Assembly: GCA_021159185.1 (NCBI GenBank)
Contig: JAGGSH010000010.1
Span: forward strand, 1 to 53,192
Direction of reading: 5' to 3'
From: a bacterium
Lineage (GTDB): Bacteria > Patescibacteriota > Minisyncoccia > Moranbacterales > UBA9337
Length of the DNA stretch: 53,192 nucleotides
This document shows positions 42,816 through 50,437 of this stretch, one piece after another. The notes beneath the pieces were generated by a model. It did no database searches. It worked only from the letters and a program-made list of their open reading frames with translations, and was not told where the DNA came from. Every line of letters begins with the position of its first letter. The stretch's first letter is position 1. A program made the translations under genes and the position numbers.

Positions 42816-43256
42816 TTAATAATTTATCAATATTACGCTGGCTACCGCTATGGCGGAACTTAATTGGATCATAATGGAAGCTATCAATAAAATATAAGAA
42901 GCGACTCTTTCTTTTTTCTCGTAAAACCTCCGGGCTAAAAAAATATTCAGCAATGTGAGCGCTGTTGCCACCGCCGGCGCCAAATAAGCTTGCTGCCACT
43001 CTCCGACAAGATCCACCCCGAAATAAACATTGTAATGCAAAATTATGGAATAAGAACGGCTGCTATTAATAAAAACGGCTATTGCGATCCAATTAACTAT
43101 ATCCAAAACAGCCAGCGCTATTAAAATACAGCGAATAATATTATTTCCGAGAAATCCCCGGTTAAAAAAAGACCTGACTTTAAATTTCAGGCTAATGTTT
43201 TTTTGGTCTTTCTTTTTGTTTTTTAGAAAAATTTTAAATATTGAAATTTTGAACAT
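42816..43256 (-). CDS. Small membrane protein, unknown function
   Basis: A 146-residue protein with a basic N-terminus and three hydrophobic spans (about 42-62, 86-106, 120-144). The loop SIILHYNVYFGVDLVGEWQQ is distinctive and appears, as I recall, in related CPR proteins, but I know no function. It shares the strand with the wHTH protein upstream (30 bp gap), so the two are likely in one transcript. Confidence 0.65.
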   Translation of the reverse strand: MFKISIFKIFLKNKKKDQKNISLKFKVRSFFNRGFLGNNIIRCILIALAVLDIVNWIAIAVFINSSRSYSIILHYNVYFGVDLVGEWQQAYLAPAVATALTLLNIFLARRFYEKKERVASYILLIASIMIQLSSAIAVASVILINY

Positions 43257-43285
43257 TGGAATTTATTTAGAACACTTCCCGCTTC

Positions 43286-43873
43286 TCATATTTTAAACCC
43301 TTTAATTTTAATTTTATTAACAATTTCATTATGAGGATCTTTAATGAAATCAAGTATAAAACGATCCATCATATTAACGCGGTATTTTAATTCCTCGCTG
43401 CTCATTAGGACATATCTTATTTCCTTCCCCAGTTCCGCCTCAAGATTGCTTATTAAATTTTTAAGTTTCCGGCGATTGACATTATCCACCGCTAAAATCA
43501 AATCTGCCTTGCTTTTGGGATAATTCAAAAAAATTCCGCTAACCACCGCCAACTTAACATTTCCAACACTTTTTATTTTTTTTAAAATTTTGCATTGGGG
43601 ATAGGTATTGGATTTCGCCACCAAGCTTTTGAGTTCCGGTTGAAAAATAAAATCGGGATTTAAGCGATAGAATTTTTTTCTTTTTTTAGTTTTTTCAATA
43701 ATAAATTTTATCTTTTTAAAATTTTTTATTTCCCGCTTGGCATCAGTAACTTTAAGCATATTTTTCTTAGCCGCTTCCGCTATTGAATATTCTTGATCGG
43801 GATTAAGCAAAAAAAAGCGAAGCATTCTTGCTTTGGATTTTGACCCAAATAAACTTTCTAATATTTCAGCCAT
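43286..43873 (-). CDS. Winged-helix regulator with nucleotidyltransferase-like tail
   Basis: A 195-residue protein. Residues 1-75 form a winged helix: LFGSKSKARMLRFFLLNPDQ, then EYSIAEAAKKNMLKVTDAKR as the recognition part, and IEKTKKRKKFYRLN as the wing. The rest resembles the nucleotidyltransferase-like domain often found behind such wings in CPR proteins; the usual G-S ... D-x-D is degenerate (YPKSKADLILAVDNV), so it is probably not catalytic. A transcription factor role is likely; targets unknown. Confidence 0.7.
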   Translation of the reverse strand: MAEILESLFGSKSKARMLRFFLLNPDQEYSIAEAAKKNMLKVTDAKREIKNFKKIKFIIEKTKKRKKFYRLNPDFIFQPELKSLVAKSNTYPQCKILKKIKSVGNVKLAVVSGIFLNYPKSKADLILAVDNVNRRKLKNLISNLEAELGKEIRYVLMSSEELKYRVNMMDRFILDFIKDPHNEIVNKIKIKGFKI

Positions 43874-43944
43874 ATTTTTAATTTATCTTTAAGGAAAGTG
43901 TAATACTAAAGCCGTGAAAAGTAAACCCCATTAGAAAAATGATG

Positions 43945-44178
43945 GCTAGTCAAATTGCCGAGAGGTATTCCTTTGCATGGTTCTTTATTACAGCTTCTGA
44001 TTATTTCTTCAATGATATTTAGAAGTTTGGCGTCTTTTATTTTTTCCCTAATCAGTGACAGTAAAATCTCATGGTCAATAGAATCAAAGAATTTTTTAAC
44101 ATCGCATTTCAGTGCCCAAGCGGTTCTGGTTTTATTCCTTGTTAGCGTTAAGCAAAATTTTTTCAGCCGTTTTATAGC
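43945..44178 (-). pseudogene. Fragment of DGR-type reverse transcriptase
   Basis: The minus strand encodes about 78 residues without a stop: AIKRLKKFCLTLTRNKTRTA, WALKCDVKKFFDSIDHEILL, then SLIREKIKDAKLLNIIEEII and ending KGIPLGNLTS. CDVKKFFDSIDH is RT motif A, and GIPLGNLTS is the motif-B form (GxxxS) of DGR and related reverse transcriptases. An in-frame stop (44179-44181) precedes it, and similarity ends right after NLTS, before the catalytic YxDD motif. The fragment is therefore inactive. It is placed 3' of the variable protein on the same strand, the normal DGR order. Confidence 0.88.
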
Positions 44179-44199
44179 TTAGTCCAGTGAGGTCACGCT

Positions 44200-44224
44200 A
44201 AAAAAGCCCGCCAAATTTAGGCGG
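44200..44224 (-). terminator. Terminator after the variable protein
   Basis: On the minus strand CCGCC-TAAATTT-GGCGG is followed by GCTTTTTT. It ends the vWA/MoxR transcript before the RT fragment. A hairpin just past a variable region could also have served DGR retrohoming, which is speculative. Confidence 0.8.
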
Positions 44225-44237
44225 ATCAAAGACTGCG

Positions 44238-44294
44238 AGCCTGTCCGTCGAAGCAAGCTTGTGATTTTATACAGGCTTTGTGAAACTAGCGAAG
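44238..44294. mobile_element. 57-bp palindromic insertion in the variable region end
   Basis: AGCCTGT (44238-44244) and ACAGGCT (44271-44277) are inverted. Aligned with the second variable region, everything between GCG (44235-44237) and GCG (44295-44297) is extra, so the insert is flanked by a 3-bp duplication. It is 57 bp, brings an in-frame TAG (44286), and replaces the C-terminal SL by LR. It begins like the repeat at 49409 (CCTGTCCG). Confidence 0.7.
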
Positions 44295-44426
44295 GCGGGA
44301 AAAAGCAACGCCAAGGTCGTCATTGGAATAGTCAGGCCTGTCGCTGTACACCAACACACCGTCCGAATCAAAAGACCCGACATGCACAAGCTGGCCACCC
44401 GAATCACGGCCGGCAGTCCAGGAATA
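44286..44426 (-). other. DGR variable region 1 (VR1)
   Basis: Encodes YSWTAGRDSGGQLVHVG followed by SFDSDGVLV and ending DDLGVAFSR. Compared with VR2 (47073-47209), about 13 differences fall at codon positions 1 and 2 and only three at position 3, within 24 codons. Invariant codons (SWTA, LV, VG, DGV, LGVAFSR) alternate with variable ones, as in DGR targets. Confidence 0.82.
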
Positions 44427-46385
44427 CATATTTTTAAACAGTCTTTCTTCATTATTCTTAAAATAAGCTAGAATATCATACATAAACTCCACTGGTGATT
44501 GTCTTGTGAGTCTGGTAATTTGCAACCCCTCCAGCATTTTTGTTGCCTCCTGCCAATTATCGTCCATAAGCTTTCCGATTTTTCCTTTCTGCTCGGCAAA
44601 TTCTTTAATAGCTTCCTGAAATTCTTTCGGGATAGTTTTACCCTCAAAAACTTGCTCTTTGAGGTAATTAACAATGCTTTCCGTTTGTTCCAGATAATTT
44701 TTACTATTGGAATCGGGAATTATTTCCTTGCTGGTTAATGCCCAAGAAAGCTTTGGAGAATTATCAGTGAAAAATTCTTCTTCTTTATGCCAATCCGTAT
44801 CCCAGAAAATTTTTCCGTGTCCGTCTTTTTCAAAATCTTCAGAAAGCAGTTCTTGCATTTTTTTCATGGACAAAACTGTTCCGTCTTTCGCTTTATCCAC
44901 CCTTAAAATCAAGAATTGCCCCAGCTCCTTGGCTTTTTCTAATTCTTCTTTGGAAAACAGGATTTTCGGAATATCTTCCGCTTTCAGTTTTATGTTAAAC
45001 GCTTTTTCAATTTCATCGGGACCCAAAACATCTTGCTTGCCTAAAATTTCCTTGGCATTTTTAATTTGCTCTGAAAGTTCTCCGCTTAAACCCTCTTTTT
45101 TTTCTTCAAAAAATCCCTCAGGAACTTTTCCGCTTTCCTCTATCCTCTTCCTTATTTTTTCTATTTCAACCAAAGTCTTTTCTTTTTCCAATTCTTCAGG
45201 CGTGGCCGCTTTGCTTTCGCGTTCAATACCTTTTCGTTTTGATTCTATGGGTTGCGCATATTCAATCGCGTTAATAAGCTCAAACAACTTTTGCCTGTCC
45301 GCCTCGTCTTCCAGTTTGTTCACATAAAAATATTTCAGAGCTTCCTTCCAAACCGCGTTTATATCACCCCGATAAAAATTCTGGATGAACTTGAGAACTC
45401 GTTGCGGTTCCATGCGGTCATCATACATGAATGTCTGCGGTTGGTCTTGAGCAATCTTCCTGTTTTTCAGAAGCTCTTTGGCGGCATAATGAAACTCTTT
45501 GTATTTTTCCACTAATTCTTTCATGCCTGGAATTTCCCGAAGCTCTTCGATGGGAATTTCCGTTTCATTTGAAGTCAAAAACTTTTCAGGAACCGCTTCC
45601 TTTGTTTCTGGCTTCAAACGAAACATCATATCCACTGAACCTGAAAAAGTGTCTTTTGGCAATTCGGTAACCTCTTTTTGATATACCCATCGGCGAAGCT
45701 GGGCGGGGTCAAGCGGCTGGCGGTCCAGAAACCCTTTGCCCGGAGGATTGGTTAGAGCGATAATCTTCGTGCGAGACCTGTCTACTTTCACTCTTTCAGA
45801 AGCGTCTTCCGCTAAAACAACTTCTCCGTTCTTTTCCAATTCGTCCAAAACTTCGTGGAGACGAATAATGATGTTTGGATTGGCAGAGTTGTATTCATCC
45901 AAAATTATGACTCTGATTTTTTCATCGTCTTGGCGAAGACCTTGAGTCACAGGGCCATCCGCCCATTTGTATTCCGGGTCATTGGCCGTTTTTCTTTCAG
46001 GGTTAGGGATATATCTGCCCATCATATCTTCCACATCAGTCGTTCCGTTCAGGTTTTTATAATACACTTCCCAGCCCAGCTCGGCGCACATTTTTCTGAC
46101 TGTCGTGGTTTTCCCGATGCTGGTTCCGCCCTCAATAAGAATCGGCTGGTTAAGCTTGAAAGCGGTAGCGATTTTTTTCTGAAGTTCCAGGGAGAAGTCG
46201 TCGTTTATATAAATTTTGTCATAAGTTTCTTTTTTAGGGCAAAATTCTCCACCCTTTCCTTTGGGAAGCTCCACACCCAAATAAGCCACTGAATTTTCTG
46301 TTTCCGCAATGGGAGTATCTTTTTTCTTGTCAAAACCGCCCGCATTGAATTTTGCCGATTCGTTTTTCATATTTATTTTCTCCAT
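44286..46385 (-). CDS. MoxR/AAA_5 ATPase with C-terminal DGR variable region
   Basis: A 699-residue protein; ATG 46370 (MKNESAKF) with GGAG 8 bp upstream is an alternative start. The AAA+ core has Walker A EGGTSIGKTT (near residue 86), Walker B VIILDEYNSAN (near 160), a sensor ALTNPPGKGF and RRWVYQ, as in MoxR/midasin-type AAA_5 ATPases that act as chaperones with vWA partners. A charged helical middle follows. From about residue 480 it is homologous to the truncated protein at 47073-48151, and residues 653-699 (YSWTAGRDSGG ... LGVAFSRLR) form a C-type-lectin-like variable region. Its start overlaps the gene upstream, so translation is coupled. The vWA gene lies further upstream. Confidence 0.85.
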   Translation of the reverse strand: MEKINMKNESAKFNAGGFDKKKDTPIAETENSVAYLGVELPKGKGGEFCPKKETYDKIYINDDFSLELQKKIATAFKLNQPILIEGGTSIGKTTTVRKMCAELGWEVYYKNLNGTTDVEDMMGRYIPNPERKTANDPEYKWADGPVTQGLRQDDEKIRVIILDEYNSANPNIIIRLHEVLDELEKNGEVVLAEDASERVKVDRSRTKIIALTNPPGKGFLDRQPLDPAQLRRWVYQKEVTELPKDTFSGSVDMMFRLKPETKEAVPEKFLTSNETEIPIEELREIPGMKELVEKYKEFHYAAKELLKNRKIAQDQPQTFMYDDRMEPQRVLKFIQNFYRGDINAVWKEALKYFYVNKLEDEADRQKLFELINAIEYAQPIESKRKGIERESKAATPEELEKEKTLVEIEKIRKRIEESGKVPEGFFEEKKEGLSGELSEQIKNAKEILGKQDVLGPDEIEKAFNIKLKAEDIPKILFSKEELEKAKELGQFLILRVDKAKDGTVLSMKKMQELLSEDFEKDGHGKIFWDTDWHKEEEFFTDNSPKLSWALTSKEIIPDSNSKNYLEQTESIVNYLKEQVFEGKTIPKEFQEAIKEFAEQKGKIGKLMDDNWQEATKMLEGLQITRLTRQSPVEFMYDILAYFKNNEERLFKNMYSWTAGRDSGGQLVHVGSFDSDGVLVYSDRPDYSNDDLGVAFSRLR

Positions 46386-46774
46386 GTTAAACCAATCAGT
46401 TTCAGCAAACTTTTATTGCTTTTTTCAATCTGATTAAGATTTTCCTCCGTAATTAAAATTAAAACTGCTCCCGTTTGATAATTGGGATTAGCCACCAAAT
46501 TATCATTGCCGTCATACGCGTTAATTTGTCCTGTCGGATATTGGGCAAGAATGTTATAGATATTGTTTCCCAGTTCATTTTTCAGAACAAAGTAAGCCTT
46601 GTCGCCGCTTCTTACGGCATTGAATATCTCCCTGACATTTTGGGTTTTCTGAAAACCAAATTCGGATGCTTTGTTTTCCAATTTTTCCAATTCTTTCTCA
46701 TTGCCAGCTATCGCTAAACTAGCTTCTTTTGAAGAAATTGCCAGCTGTAAGAATTTTTTTATTTCATTTTGCAT
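46373..46774 (-). CDS. Hypothetical protein coupled to the MoxR ATPase
   Basis: A 133-residue soluble protein with no motif I recognise. The N-terminal half is helical (EIKKFLQLAISSKEASLAIA) and the second half looks like alternating strands (AYFVLKNELGN, QINAYDGNDN, TGAVLILITEENL). It is not the four-helix Avd protein of DGRs. It overlaps the start of the MoxR ATPase by 13 bp and begins 1 nt from the stop of the GIY-YIG relic. It may be a small partner of the vWA/MoxR system; this is inferred from position only. Confidence 0.65.
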   Translation of the reverse strand: MQNEIKKFLQLAISSKEASLAIAGNEKELEKLENKASEFGFQKTQNVREIFNAVRSGDKAYFVLKNELGNNIYNILAQYPTGQINAYDGNDNLVANPNYQTGAVLILITEENLNQIEKSNKSLLKLIGLTWRK

Positions 46775-47036
46775 CTATTTTATACTTTCAAAATAATTAT
46801 TTAATGTTTTTCTTATATAATTTCTTCCCCGGCCGGTTTTTAAATATCTCTCCCTTTTCATTGCATCCTTCTTATTCAGATATGCCTCATAATAAATTAA
46901 TTTCCATGGAATTCCAAATTTTGTAAATTTGCTTTTTTCCTTCATTGTGTTCCAATAATCTTTTTCTTAAATCATTTGTAAGTCCTGTGTATAATTTTTC
47001 TATTTTTTTGCTTTGCAGAATATAGACATAGTACAT
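46775..47036 (-). pseudogene. GIY-YIG endonuclease-like protein, frameshifted
   Basis: Beginning at ATG 47036, the frame reads MYYVYILQSKKIEKLYTGLT then NDLRKRLLEHNEGK; after an A6 run one base must be skipped to continue FTKFGIPWKLIYYEAYLNKK, then DAMKRERYLKTGRGRNYI, ending at TAG 46775. Together this is a full-length UPF0213-type GIY-YIG protein (about 87 residues). Members of this family are small nuclease-like proteins often duplicated in CPR genomes. It lies between VR2 and the MoxR operon partner. The extra A may be a sequencing error. Confidence 0.8.
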
Positions 47037-47072: not shown

Positions 47073-47209
47073 TCAAAGACTGCGGGAGAAAGCGACACCA
47101 AGGTCGCCAAGGGAATAGCCAGACCTGAACCTACCTTCACACCATCCAAATTAAAACCACCGACATACACAAGCCTGCCATCCAAAGCACGGCGGGCAGT
47201 CCAACTATA
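47073..47209 (-). other. DGR variable region 2 (VR2), decayed
   Basis: Encodes YSWTARRALDGRLVYVGG then FNLDGVKV. It aligns codon by codon to VR1, then loses four bases near 47091-47120 and continues in another frame as DLGVAFSRSL and stop. It lies behind an in-frame stop and is no longer translated. Confidence 0.82.
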
Positions 47210-47423
47210 TCTATTCTCCAATATCCGTTCGCCTTTGTTTTGAAAATAAATTGCGATGTCATATAAAACTTCGGCTGGATTTTGTCTGGTTAATTAGTTT
47301 ATTTTTAGATTGCTTAGTTTTTCGGCTGCCTCTTTCCAGTCTGAAAACATCAATTTTTCTATTTCGCCTTTCTCTTTTTCAAATTCGTCTATTGCCTCTT
47401 GATAAATTACCGGTATTTCTCCT

Positions 47424-47457
47424 TTTCCGCCCAAGGCGGATCCGCCCCGGGCGGAAA
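47424..47457. repeat. Palindromic repeat in the truncated variable protein
   Basis: TTTTCCGCCCAAGGCGGATC with a GGATCCGCCCCGGGCGGA 18-mer (47438-47455) identical to 42675-42692; it encodes part of ARGGSALGGKG in frame. Confidence 0.8.
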
Positions 47458-48163
47458 AAACTTGGTTCTTGAGATAATTTAACATTTCTTCCGTTTGCTG
47501 GAGATAATTTTTGCCGGTTGAATTCGGAATCACTTCTTTGCTAACTAGCGCCCAAGACAATCTTGGAGTTTCATCTTTGATAAAATCCTCACTTTTATAC
47601 CACGCATCGCTTTTGATTTCCCCTTTGCCGTCGTCTGAATATAGGAGCTTGCTTCCATCGGAAACTTTACCCTTGAGAATTTCATTTATTTTTTGAAGTG
47701 TAAGCGGTTTTCCGTCTGGCGCTTTATCAGACCGCAGAACTAAAAACTGGCTTAACTCTTTCGCTCTTTCCAATTCCTCCCTGGAAAATGGAATCTCCGG
47801 AACATCTTCGGGACTGATTCTTATTCCGAAGGCTTTTTCCACTTCCTGAAATCCAAAAAATTCTTCACCCATAACTTCCTTTGCCATGTCCGTTTGCTCC
47901 TGCGCGGTTCCTTCAATCTTCTTTTCTGATGAAATACCCAAAGACATTTCAATCTGCTTGTATTTGTTTAGAACTTCTTTTAATTCGAAAATCTCCAAGC
48001 TCTCAAGGCCTCTGCCTATGGTAATTTCGCCTATTTCTTTCTTTAGTTCGGCAGCTTTTTGAAGTTCGAAAACTTCTTCCATCTCTTTCTCTGGACTGGC
48101 AGGCATTTTATCGTCTTTTTTTCCACCGAACAAAGCTTCAAATTTTTCCATACTTTAATTATA

Positions 48164-50437
48164 CTAAAAATTTTGATAATTTACAATCATTTCCTTTATG
48201 ACACCCGCCAATTTTTCCGCCATCTCTTTAACATCAATATCAGCCAGGCTGTTAGGATAAAATTCCTTCACATGCCTCGTTCCACTGCCGATTCCAAGAC
48301 CGATGAGTTTTTGGTCTGTTTCCTGCATTATCCTATTTACTATTCTGCCCAAGTCAAATTCCGGTCCGCTATGAGCGGAAGATTCCTCTGGCAGTCCGTC
48401 CGAAAGAACTATAGCGAATTTCTCGTTTGCCCGCTGTTTTGCCAGCCTTTTTGAAGTCTCCTGAAGCGCCCAGCCGTCATCATTATAATCCGCTCTTCCG
48501 CCCTGATGATTATTGACTTCTTTTAATACTCCGCCCATATTTTCCCTGATTTCCCGCGACAGATTTTCCCCGAATGTCTGGTATTCATAAAGCCTATCGT
48601 TAAAACCAAGAATTTCTGTTTTTATAGAAAGTTTGTTTAATACTTCCGCCAAAACAATCAATGCTTTGAATGTTTCTCTTATCTTCCGCCCCGACATAGA
48701 ACCGGACAAATCCACTAAAATGGAAATGGCATAGTCTTTTTCCGTTGGCAGTTCCCGCTTCTGCCAAGCCTTGCTTTCCACGACGGAAACGCCTTTGGCC
48801 TTTTCCTGAATTCTGGTTTTAATGTTTATTTTTTTACCGGTCCTGAATCCGCTTTTCCATCGGCTGGCGCGCCTTGCCACGAAAATTTCCCGCAAATCAT
48901 TTTCCAGCTTCTCAATTATCGGCAAAACTTCTTTTCGGTATTCCTCATAGACATTGGCGTCTTTCTCTAATGATTTTTCCAAAATATCTTTGTATTTTTG
49001 CAAATCGCTCTGCCGTTGCTTTTCTCTTTCTTTGTCCAAGTCGGTTTCTGACTTTTCTTCTTCCGGCTTTTCTATTTCTTCTTTTGTTTTTTCACCATCA
49101 ATTCTTTCTTGTTTTTTTTCCAGATTATCAGAAAGCTTTCCCTCAATCTCTTCATTGATTTCTTTTTCCAGTCCCTTGATTTCTTTTTCCGCATTATCTT
49201 GAAGCTCTTTCTTTTTATCGGCTGGCAAAGAATCTATATAGCCCTTAATTTTTTGCTTGAGCCCTTCCGAAAGAGAATCCAAATCAATCGGCCTGCCTTT
49301 TGGCTCGCCTTCCCGTGGTTTCTTCTCGATCATTTCTCCCGCTTGCGATTCACTTTCTTTTTCTTTTTCTTTTTCTTCTTTTCCTTTTTCGCCCTTTTGC
49401 TTTTCTTGCCTGTCCGCTGTAGCTTTAGCGGAGGCGGATTCTTTTTTTGCCTCTTCAATAGCTTTGTCAATCGCTTCTTCCAGCTCTTTTTGTTCTTCCG
49501 GAGTTGAATTATCTTTTAATTCTTGGGGTATCGGCTGTCCTTGCCCTTCTCCCTGTCCTTTCTGCATATCTTTCATTAGCTCCTGCATCTCTTGGTCTTT
49601 CATATCTTCCTCAACTAATTTTTTAAACTCAGGCCATATTTCATCCCTGTTTATTTCATAAGAAACCTGGGCGTATTTTCGGATAAGTTCTTCGCTTTCA
49701 TCAGCTTCTTTTTTAGATGGGTAACGCCACCAGGAATCTTTAGCCGATTCCAGCGTTTCCTTAACTGTTTTCCTGACATCTTCCGGCAGATCCGCGTTGA
49801 TTACATTTTCTTCCCCTTGTGTCTCTTTATACCACTGCTTGATATATTCAAAGCCGGCTTGCATAAATTTCGGCTGATAGCCCAGCTTTTTCTCTGCTTT
49901 TTCTTTGGCTTTTTGCTCAGTATCCAAATCGCGCCGGTAGGCCAGCTTCATTTGTTCTTTGAATTTGGGATAATTTTCCGCCACGAAATTATTGTCCCTC
50001 GGGTCTTCAATAGCGTTCATCATAAAAGAAAAGCCTGCCTGTTTCCAAATCTCCAACGGAATAAAGTCGGTCCGGGAGATTCTTCTGTGCCCTCCTTCAT
50101 GAGAAATGACAAAGCGAAGATAGTCCATAGGTTTTTCCAGCAGGTCTTTCGGGTCAATTCTGATTTTATTTGCTTTAAAATCCCAGTGCCAGCCAGCCCC
50201 GGGCTTATTAAGCTCTACGGGAATTTCAAAATCTTTTCCAATAAAATATGCCAGCGAAGACAGTACTTTTTGTTTGTATTTTATTTCTTTCTGCTCTTTT
50301 TTTGAAAATGAAGAAAGAATATCTTTTTCAAGATTCTTTTCTGATTTTTCATCTTTCCTCAAGGATTCAAATTGTCGGCTAGCTATTTTCATTTTTTCCA
50401 TATCTACAATATATAGCAAAGTAGAATAAAAATCCAC
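48164..50437 (-). CDS. vWA protein with zincin-like N-terminal domain
   Basis: A 757-residue protein; ATG 50401 (MEKMKIASRQ) is an alternative start. The N-terminal domain has LRFVISHEGGHRRISRTDF (HExxH near residue 114) and NAIEDPRDNNFVAENYP, as in metallopeptidase-like domains that precede vWA in CobT-like proteins. A very long Glu/Lys-rich low-complexity part (about 250-520) follows, holding a repeat-derived SASAKATADRQ. The C-terminal vWA domain (about 560-757) has the MIDAS motif ILVDLSGSMSGRK, a Thr/Asp pair, and IVLSDGLPEE. vWA/MoxR pairs are chaperone-type or signalling machines (CobS/CobT, RavA/ViaA), and the MoxR partner is downstream on the same strand. Confidence 0.85.
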   Translation of the reverse strand: MDFYSTLLYIVDMEKMKIASRQFESLRKDEKSEKNLEKDILSSFSKKEQKEIKYKQKVLSSLAYFIGKDFEIPVELNKPGAGWHWDFKANKIRIDPKDLLEKPMDYLRFVISHEGGHRRISRTDFIPLEIWKQAGFSFMMNAIEDPRDNNFVAENYPKFKEQMKLAYRRDLDTEQKAKEKAEKKLGYQPKFMQAGFEYIKQWYKETQGEENVINADLPEDVRKTVKETLESAKDSWWRYPSKKEADESEELIRKYAQVSYEINRDEIWPEFKKLVEEDMKDQEMQELMKDMQKGQGEGQGQPIPQELKDNSTPEEQKELEEAIDKAIEEAKKESASAKATADRQEKQKGEKGKEEKEKEKESESQAGEMIEKKPREGEPKGRPIDLDSLSEGLKQKIKGYIDSLPADKKKELQDNAEKEIKGLEKEINEEIEGKLSDNLEKKQERIDGEKTKEEIEKPEEEKSETDLDKEREKQRQSDLQKYKDILEKSLEKDANVYEEYRKEVLPIIEKLENDLREIFVARRASRWKSGFRTGKKINIKTRIQEKAKGVSVVESKAWQKRELPTEKDYAISILVDLSGSMSGRKIRETFKALIVLAEVLNKLSIKTEILGFNDRLYEYQTFGENLSREIRENMGGVLKEVNNHQGGRADYNDDGWALQETSKRLAKQRANEKFAIVLSDGLPEESSAHSGPEFDLGRIVNRIMQETDQKLIGLGIGSGTRHVKEFYPNSLADIDVKEMAEKLAGVIKEMIVNYQNF
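49409..49437. repeat. Palindromic repeat inside the vWA gene
   Basis: CCTGTCCGCTGTAGCTTTAG CGGAGGCGG, with CCGC / GCGG arms, translated in frame as ASAKATADRQ in the charged linker. This peptide type recurs in CPR proteins. Confidence 0.8.

Follow-up and report, generated by a model that had tools for sequence, protein, structure and literature searches.

A probably dead diversity-generating retroelement (DGR) next to the MoxR-vWA module of a CPR bacterium (Patescibacteria)

Described systems and the layout of the locus

MoxR-vWA systems with DGR-diversified domains, which in those systems are lectin-like, have already been described (PMC7159879). Degenerate DGR loci with MoxR partners have also been reported in Thiohalocapsa, where loci that are degenerate in one assembly have intact variants in long reads (PMC10907252), and the DGRs of CPR bacteria are known to form a clade (PMC8144416). 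Degenerate DGRs next to MoxR partners are therefore already published, and the stretch of DNA analyzed here (53,192 nucleotides, hereafter the window) is a clean further case. What it adds is the lack of a detectable rescuer in the genome, together with a set of differently broken relatives.

The locus resembles that of Thiohalocapsa PB-PSB1 (PMC10907252) in that key machinery is missing or pseudogenised and the targets lie next to MoxR-like ATPases. However, in PB-PSB1 the defect seems to be made good in trans by intact DGRs elsewhere in the genome, or else the population includes intact variants, whereas no other DGR reverse transcriptase (RT), template repeat (TR) or Avd was found in the window genome. 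With the MoxR-vWA ternary conflict systems (PMC7159879) it shares the combination, at one locus, of a MoxR AAA ATPase, a vWA protein and a C-terminal variable domain, as well as the link to a DGR, which is seen in the window's intact relatives. In contrast to those systems, it is the MoxR ATPase, and not the vWA protein, that carries the variable domain as a fusion, the host belongs to the CPR and not to multicellular bacteria, and the Pfam scan of the adjacent genes returned no domain of a VMAP-type effector or peptidase component. As to the Patescibacteria DGRs of clade 2 (PMC8144416), the likeness is one of host group and of being cellular DGRs, the comparison being made by host and not by clade placement; unlike them, the window is devoid of an RT core, a TR and an Avd.

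Table 1. Features of the locus, with positions counted from the first letter of the window.
Feature	Position	Strand	Remarks
DGR reverse transcriptase internal fragment	43909..44178	minus	motif A (CDVKKFFDSIDH) to motif B (GIPLGNLTS)
G+C-rich hairpin + T run (TCCGCC-TAAATTT-GGCGGG-CTTTTTT)	44200..44225	minus	in relatives, hairpin directly after TR
12-base scrap CGCAGTCTTTGA	44226..44237	minus	probable last piece of lost TR, or another VR's end
Variable protein 1 (MoxR-type AAA_5 ATPase + variable C-terminal domain fusion)	44286..46385	minus	699 aa, open
VR1 (start approximate)	44295..44408	minus	conserved IMH-like end 44295-44318
Variable protein 2, pseudogene	47082..48151	minus	in-frame TAA ~47294-47296; 4-base deletion in VR near 47132
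VR2 (start approximate)	47082..47191	minus	conserved end 47082-47105
vWA/CobT-like protein, expected MoxR ATPase partner	48164..50437	minus	CobT_C/VWA match

The features of the locus are collected in Table 1. A MoxR-type ATPase (AAA_5) is encoded together with a vWA gene (CobT_C/VWA) whose reading frame is open, while the gene carrying VR2 is itself broken, a point on which the earlier note had to be corrected. The target gene, with its C-terminal VR, is homologous to DGR targets. Of the 32 sites at which the TRs of seven relatives predict a template adenine, 15 are unlike in VR1 and VR2, compared with 21 of the other 103 (Fisher p 0.005). The two copies thus differ preferentially at predicted template-adenine sites, a pattern that fits past diversification by the usual mechanism and later drift as well. 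The structure model of the C-terminal 300 residues of the variable protein has a pLDDT of 91.8, and in the PDB it comes nearest mostly to formylglycine-generating enzymes, and less near to Mtd, a DGR protein of phage, none of these matches being significant (best E 0.29); given what is generally known of DGR targets, the domain is likely, rather than proven here, to be C-type-lectin-like. Two small ORFs were also noticed, one of 56 aa between both variable-protein genes (46775-46945), matching part of a GIY-YIG nuclease domain, and one of 133 aa overlapping the start of the fusion gene (46373-46774), with no Pfam match above threshold.

Homologues of the variable protein occur in 8 of 384 genomes of the class, the window's own included, and at 17 loci in named genomes, most of them CPR (among others Parcubacteria, Yanofskybacteria, Azambacteria and Magasanikbacteria); no other copy was found among the genomes of the genus and family (10 with the window's own). 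Loci with an intact RT encode one to three variable proteins (some fusion-sized, ~690-950 aa) with a TR, an Avd and the RT, and those of the Yanofskybacteria type have separate ATPase-like and vWA-like genes between the variable proteins. Mismatches between TR and VR that fall at template adenines are the defining mark of a DGR. Such positions account for all mismatches in loci L073 (14/14), L069 (14/14), L072 (18/18) and L071 (16/16), and for 19/20, 15/16 and 11/13 in L070, L074 and L036. L073 has the order and strand of the window, with a fusion-sized variable protein, a TR and an RT. L069 (JAJYJC010000002.1) has both the RT and the variable protein closest to those of the window, and encodes a 720-aa fusion-sized protein and a second variable protein, as the window does, but its RT, TR and Avd appear intact.

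The reverse transcriptase fragment

On the downstream side of the 699-aa fusion gene, the window holds a remnant of an RT. The minus-strand frame from 44178 to ~43909 reads AIKRLKKFCLTLTRNKTRTAWALKCDVKKFFDSIDHEILL...KGIPLGNLTSHHFSNGVYFSRL*, is preceded immediately by a TAA, and extends from just ahead of motif A to just past motif B. A six-frame hmmsearch of 43000-44400 with a profile built from 36 related RTs aligned model positions 128-233 of 340 (E 1.3e-37, 117 bits); past position ~215 the alignment is poor and runs through a stop, leaving 88-90 codons (about positions 128-215). With this profile, neither the N-terminal half of an RT, nor YxDD, nor a thumb could be found in any of the six frames of that interval, so that the catalytic core with YxDD is missing from the window's RT. 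Among 25 columns conserved in at least 90% of intact RTs, the fragment retains 19 and has lost 6; intact RTs lack 0-4 in the same test. The earlier note had described a truncated DGR RT reduced to motifs A and B, with YxDD gone and a stop ahead of it, and all of this stands. It had placed the fragment at 43945-44178, of which the upper limit holds, while at the other end homology reaches ~43909. The fragment is no longer a gene.

The model libraries searched yielded general RT models and no DGR-specific one, and the fragment matches several of these weakly: the padloc generic RT (E 1.7e-13), group II RT/maturase (41.5 bits, E 9.2e-11), Drt3a (E 5.6e-8) and retron St85 (24.6 bits, E 1.3e-5). 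These weak matches are what could be said for a fragment left by a group II intron, a retron or a defence RT unrelated to the variable proteins. That origin is nevertheless very improbable, as the profile of the relatives' RTs scores 117 bits, the motif GIPLGNLTS has the form found in RTs with verified TR/VR pairs (LPLGNLTSQ in L073), and the fragment occupies the place of the RT in the L073 layout. Moreover, of the RTs gathered for this comparison it comes closest to that of L069 (53.7% identity across 95 columns), a locus with a verified TR/VR pair in which the TR, an Avd and the RT occur together with two variable proteins; the variable protein of the window, too, finds its best match in L069 (53%). 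Taking the 117 bits against 41.5 and 24.6, and the best match being in a TR/VR-verified locus, the fragment comes, by sequence comparison, from the RT of a DGR and not from that of a group II intron or a retron; better alignment to the latter two, named beforehand as what would count against a DGR origin, was looked for and not seen.

The 12-base scrap and the search for a rescuer

The fusion gene and the RT fragment are only 107 bases apart, and within these lie a scrap of 12 bases and a hairpin followed by a T run. The 12-mer CGCAGTCTTTGA (plus strand TCAAAGACTGCG) has two copies in the window, at 44226-44237 and at 47073-47084, the end of VR2. When 20,000 sequences were simulated with matching base-step frequencies, 11 had a run of at least 12 bases in common with the VR2 tail, and the match is above chance. 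The earlier note had suggested that the scrap may be the last piece of a lost TR. Its position and context point to a TR: in six of the eight relatives' TRs with a located end, a hairpin with a T run follows directly 3' of the TR (L096 has the hairpin without the T run), while VR ends have no such hairpin save one weak 5-bp case, these counts leaving out L076, L077 and L080, in which the automatic locator failed or misplaced the ends. Hairpins are visible after the TRs of these three loci as well. The sequence AGTCTTTG ahead of the hairpin is the TR form in L070 and L096, whose TRs read GAAGTCTTTG where the window reads GCAGTCTTTGA. However, the single diagnostic base is VR-like, C in place of the A of the relatives' TRs.

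The scrap could thus also be the end of a deleted third VR followed by an ordinary operon terminator. Where the TRs of relatives read CGAAGT it reads CGCAGT, as VRs do, and it shares its terminal stop codon with VR2; against this stand the hairpin and T run directly after it, rare or absent at VR ends, and the TR-like bases ahead of the hairpin. We regard a third VR as possible, if rather unlikely, and a last piece of the lost template as the likely, though not proven, origin of the scrap. In L069-L075 the TRs end in CCGAAG and the VRs in CCGCAG, a constant one-base difference, and a hairpin usually follows the TRs. An AGCCTGT...ACAGGCT inverted repeat downstream of VR1 was also considered as a DGR hairpin and discarded, as it folds no better than shuffled sequences (z ~0.1).

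The earlier note had held that the system is without a local diversifier and that VR1 is frozen unless an RT acts in trans. The genome, a single assembly of 42 contigs, is 96.26% complete, with ~4% unassembled. In it, the only other RT is the UG13b defence RT (E 6.8e-139), and on that assignment rescue in trans by this enzyme was rejected. The UG13b RT (L001:1012-2403, on contig C7 of the window genome, G000; 463 aa) lies next to what we take, from reading its sequence, to be an HsdS-like specificity protein. No TR was found in the assembled genome, the TR end pattern recovering VR1 and VR2 only, while a pattern of the same kind recovers the TRs of G151 and G303; a DNA search of the genome with VR1 had proved too insensitive, missing even VR2, and was replaced by this one. 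Likewise, no Avd was detected in the window contig or the whole genome, and Avd is present in every intact-RT locus scanned. Neither a TR matching the VRs at non-adenine sites nor an Avd, the accessory protein that most DGRs have, was found for the locus, and the search proposed for an intact RT with a TR ended with no second DGR RT in the assembled genome, in support of the view taken in the note.

It is conceivable that the DGR is broken in the assembled strain only, VR1 still being diversified by an intact RT and TR in other cells or in the unassembled part, as the 42 contigs and 96.26% completeness would allow and as has been described for two Thiohalocapsa loci (PMC10907252). The several separate lesions (TR, Avd, both RT ends, and the stop and deletion of VR2) and the 6 of 25 highly conserved residues gone from the fragment argue that this was not a recent single event, and make such an explanation improbable.

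We consider that the locus is very probably a dead DGR attached to a MoxR-vWA module. By analogy with L073, the ancestral layout was probably an AAA/variable-protein fusion, a TR, an Avd on the opposite strand and an RT. In such a system the RT would have made cDNA from the TR, and this adenine-mutated copy would have overwritten the VRs of the variable proteins; later deletions would have removed most of the TR, all of the Avd and both termini of the RT, and the second target gene would also have been broken. VR1, we infer, no longer changes. The open frame of variable protein 1 and that of its vWA partner suggest that the protein may still work, as a fixed ligand sensor signalling via the ATPase/vWA pair.

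Recurrent loss in related genomes

Comparable losses were encountered in relatives. In G391 the TR is kept and the 5' half of the RT is deleted, with nothing before model position ~169 in what is the sole RT match of that genome. G070 (100% complete, 8 contigs) has three variable proteins with a C-terminal RT scrap and one other RT, elsewhere, with an Avd; no TR matching the VRs of the scrap locus was found in its genome. G394 has a frameshift in the RT just ahead of YxDD, and G115 combines an RT truncated on the same contig with a second, intact RT elsewhere. In G254, a 99% complete genome from the window's order, the variable protein is open, and its genome yielded no RT, no TR and one marginal Avd-like match (E 0.0013, 19% identity). 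The differing breakpoints suggest that the losses were independent, although single-assembly errors possibly lie behind some lesions, above all the G394 frameshift.

Selection on the variable proteins could be estimated for the pair G070/G151, the relatives of the window's own protein being too distant: the second variable protein, compared without its VR, gives a dN/dS of ~0.04 (dN 0.020, dS 0.52), and dS is saturated for the other two. We tentatively propose that MoxR-vWA systems of Patescibacteria with DGR-diversified sensors may repeatedly diversify and then freeze, with independent losses of RT, Avd and TR, variable proteins that stay open and constrained, and a selected variant turned into a permanent receptor. 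It is the repetition that gives this pattern its interest. Where one genome has retained the sensor without the mutator and a relative has retained both, the two form a natural pair in which to probe the role of the sensor once fixed, and to ask whether the mutator is lost through decay or through selection of a single good binder; of the sets found here, G070 with G151 and G303 is the cleanest.

The RT scrap of G070 (L078:5872-6042) lies by three open variable proteins, and L077 and L080, from relatives of G070, have a full DGR beside the same gene cluster. In G391 (L096:7855-8567) the TR and its hairpin run straight into the RT from position ~169, the Avd being deleted as well, a deletion of the same kind as that of the window with another end point.
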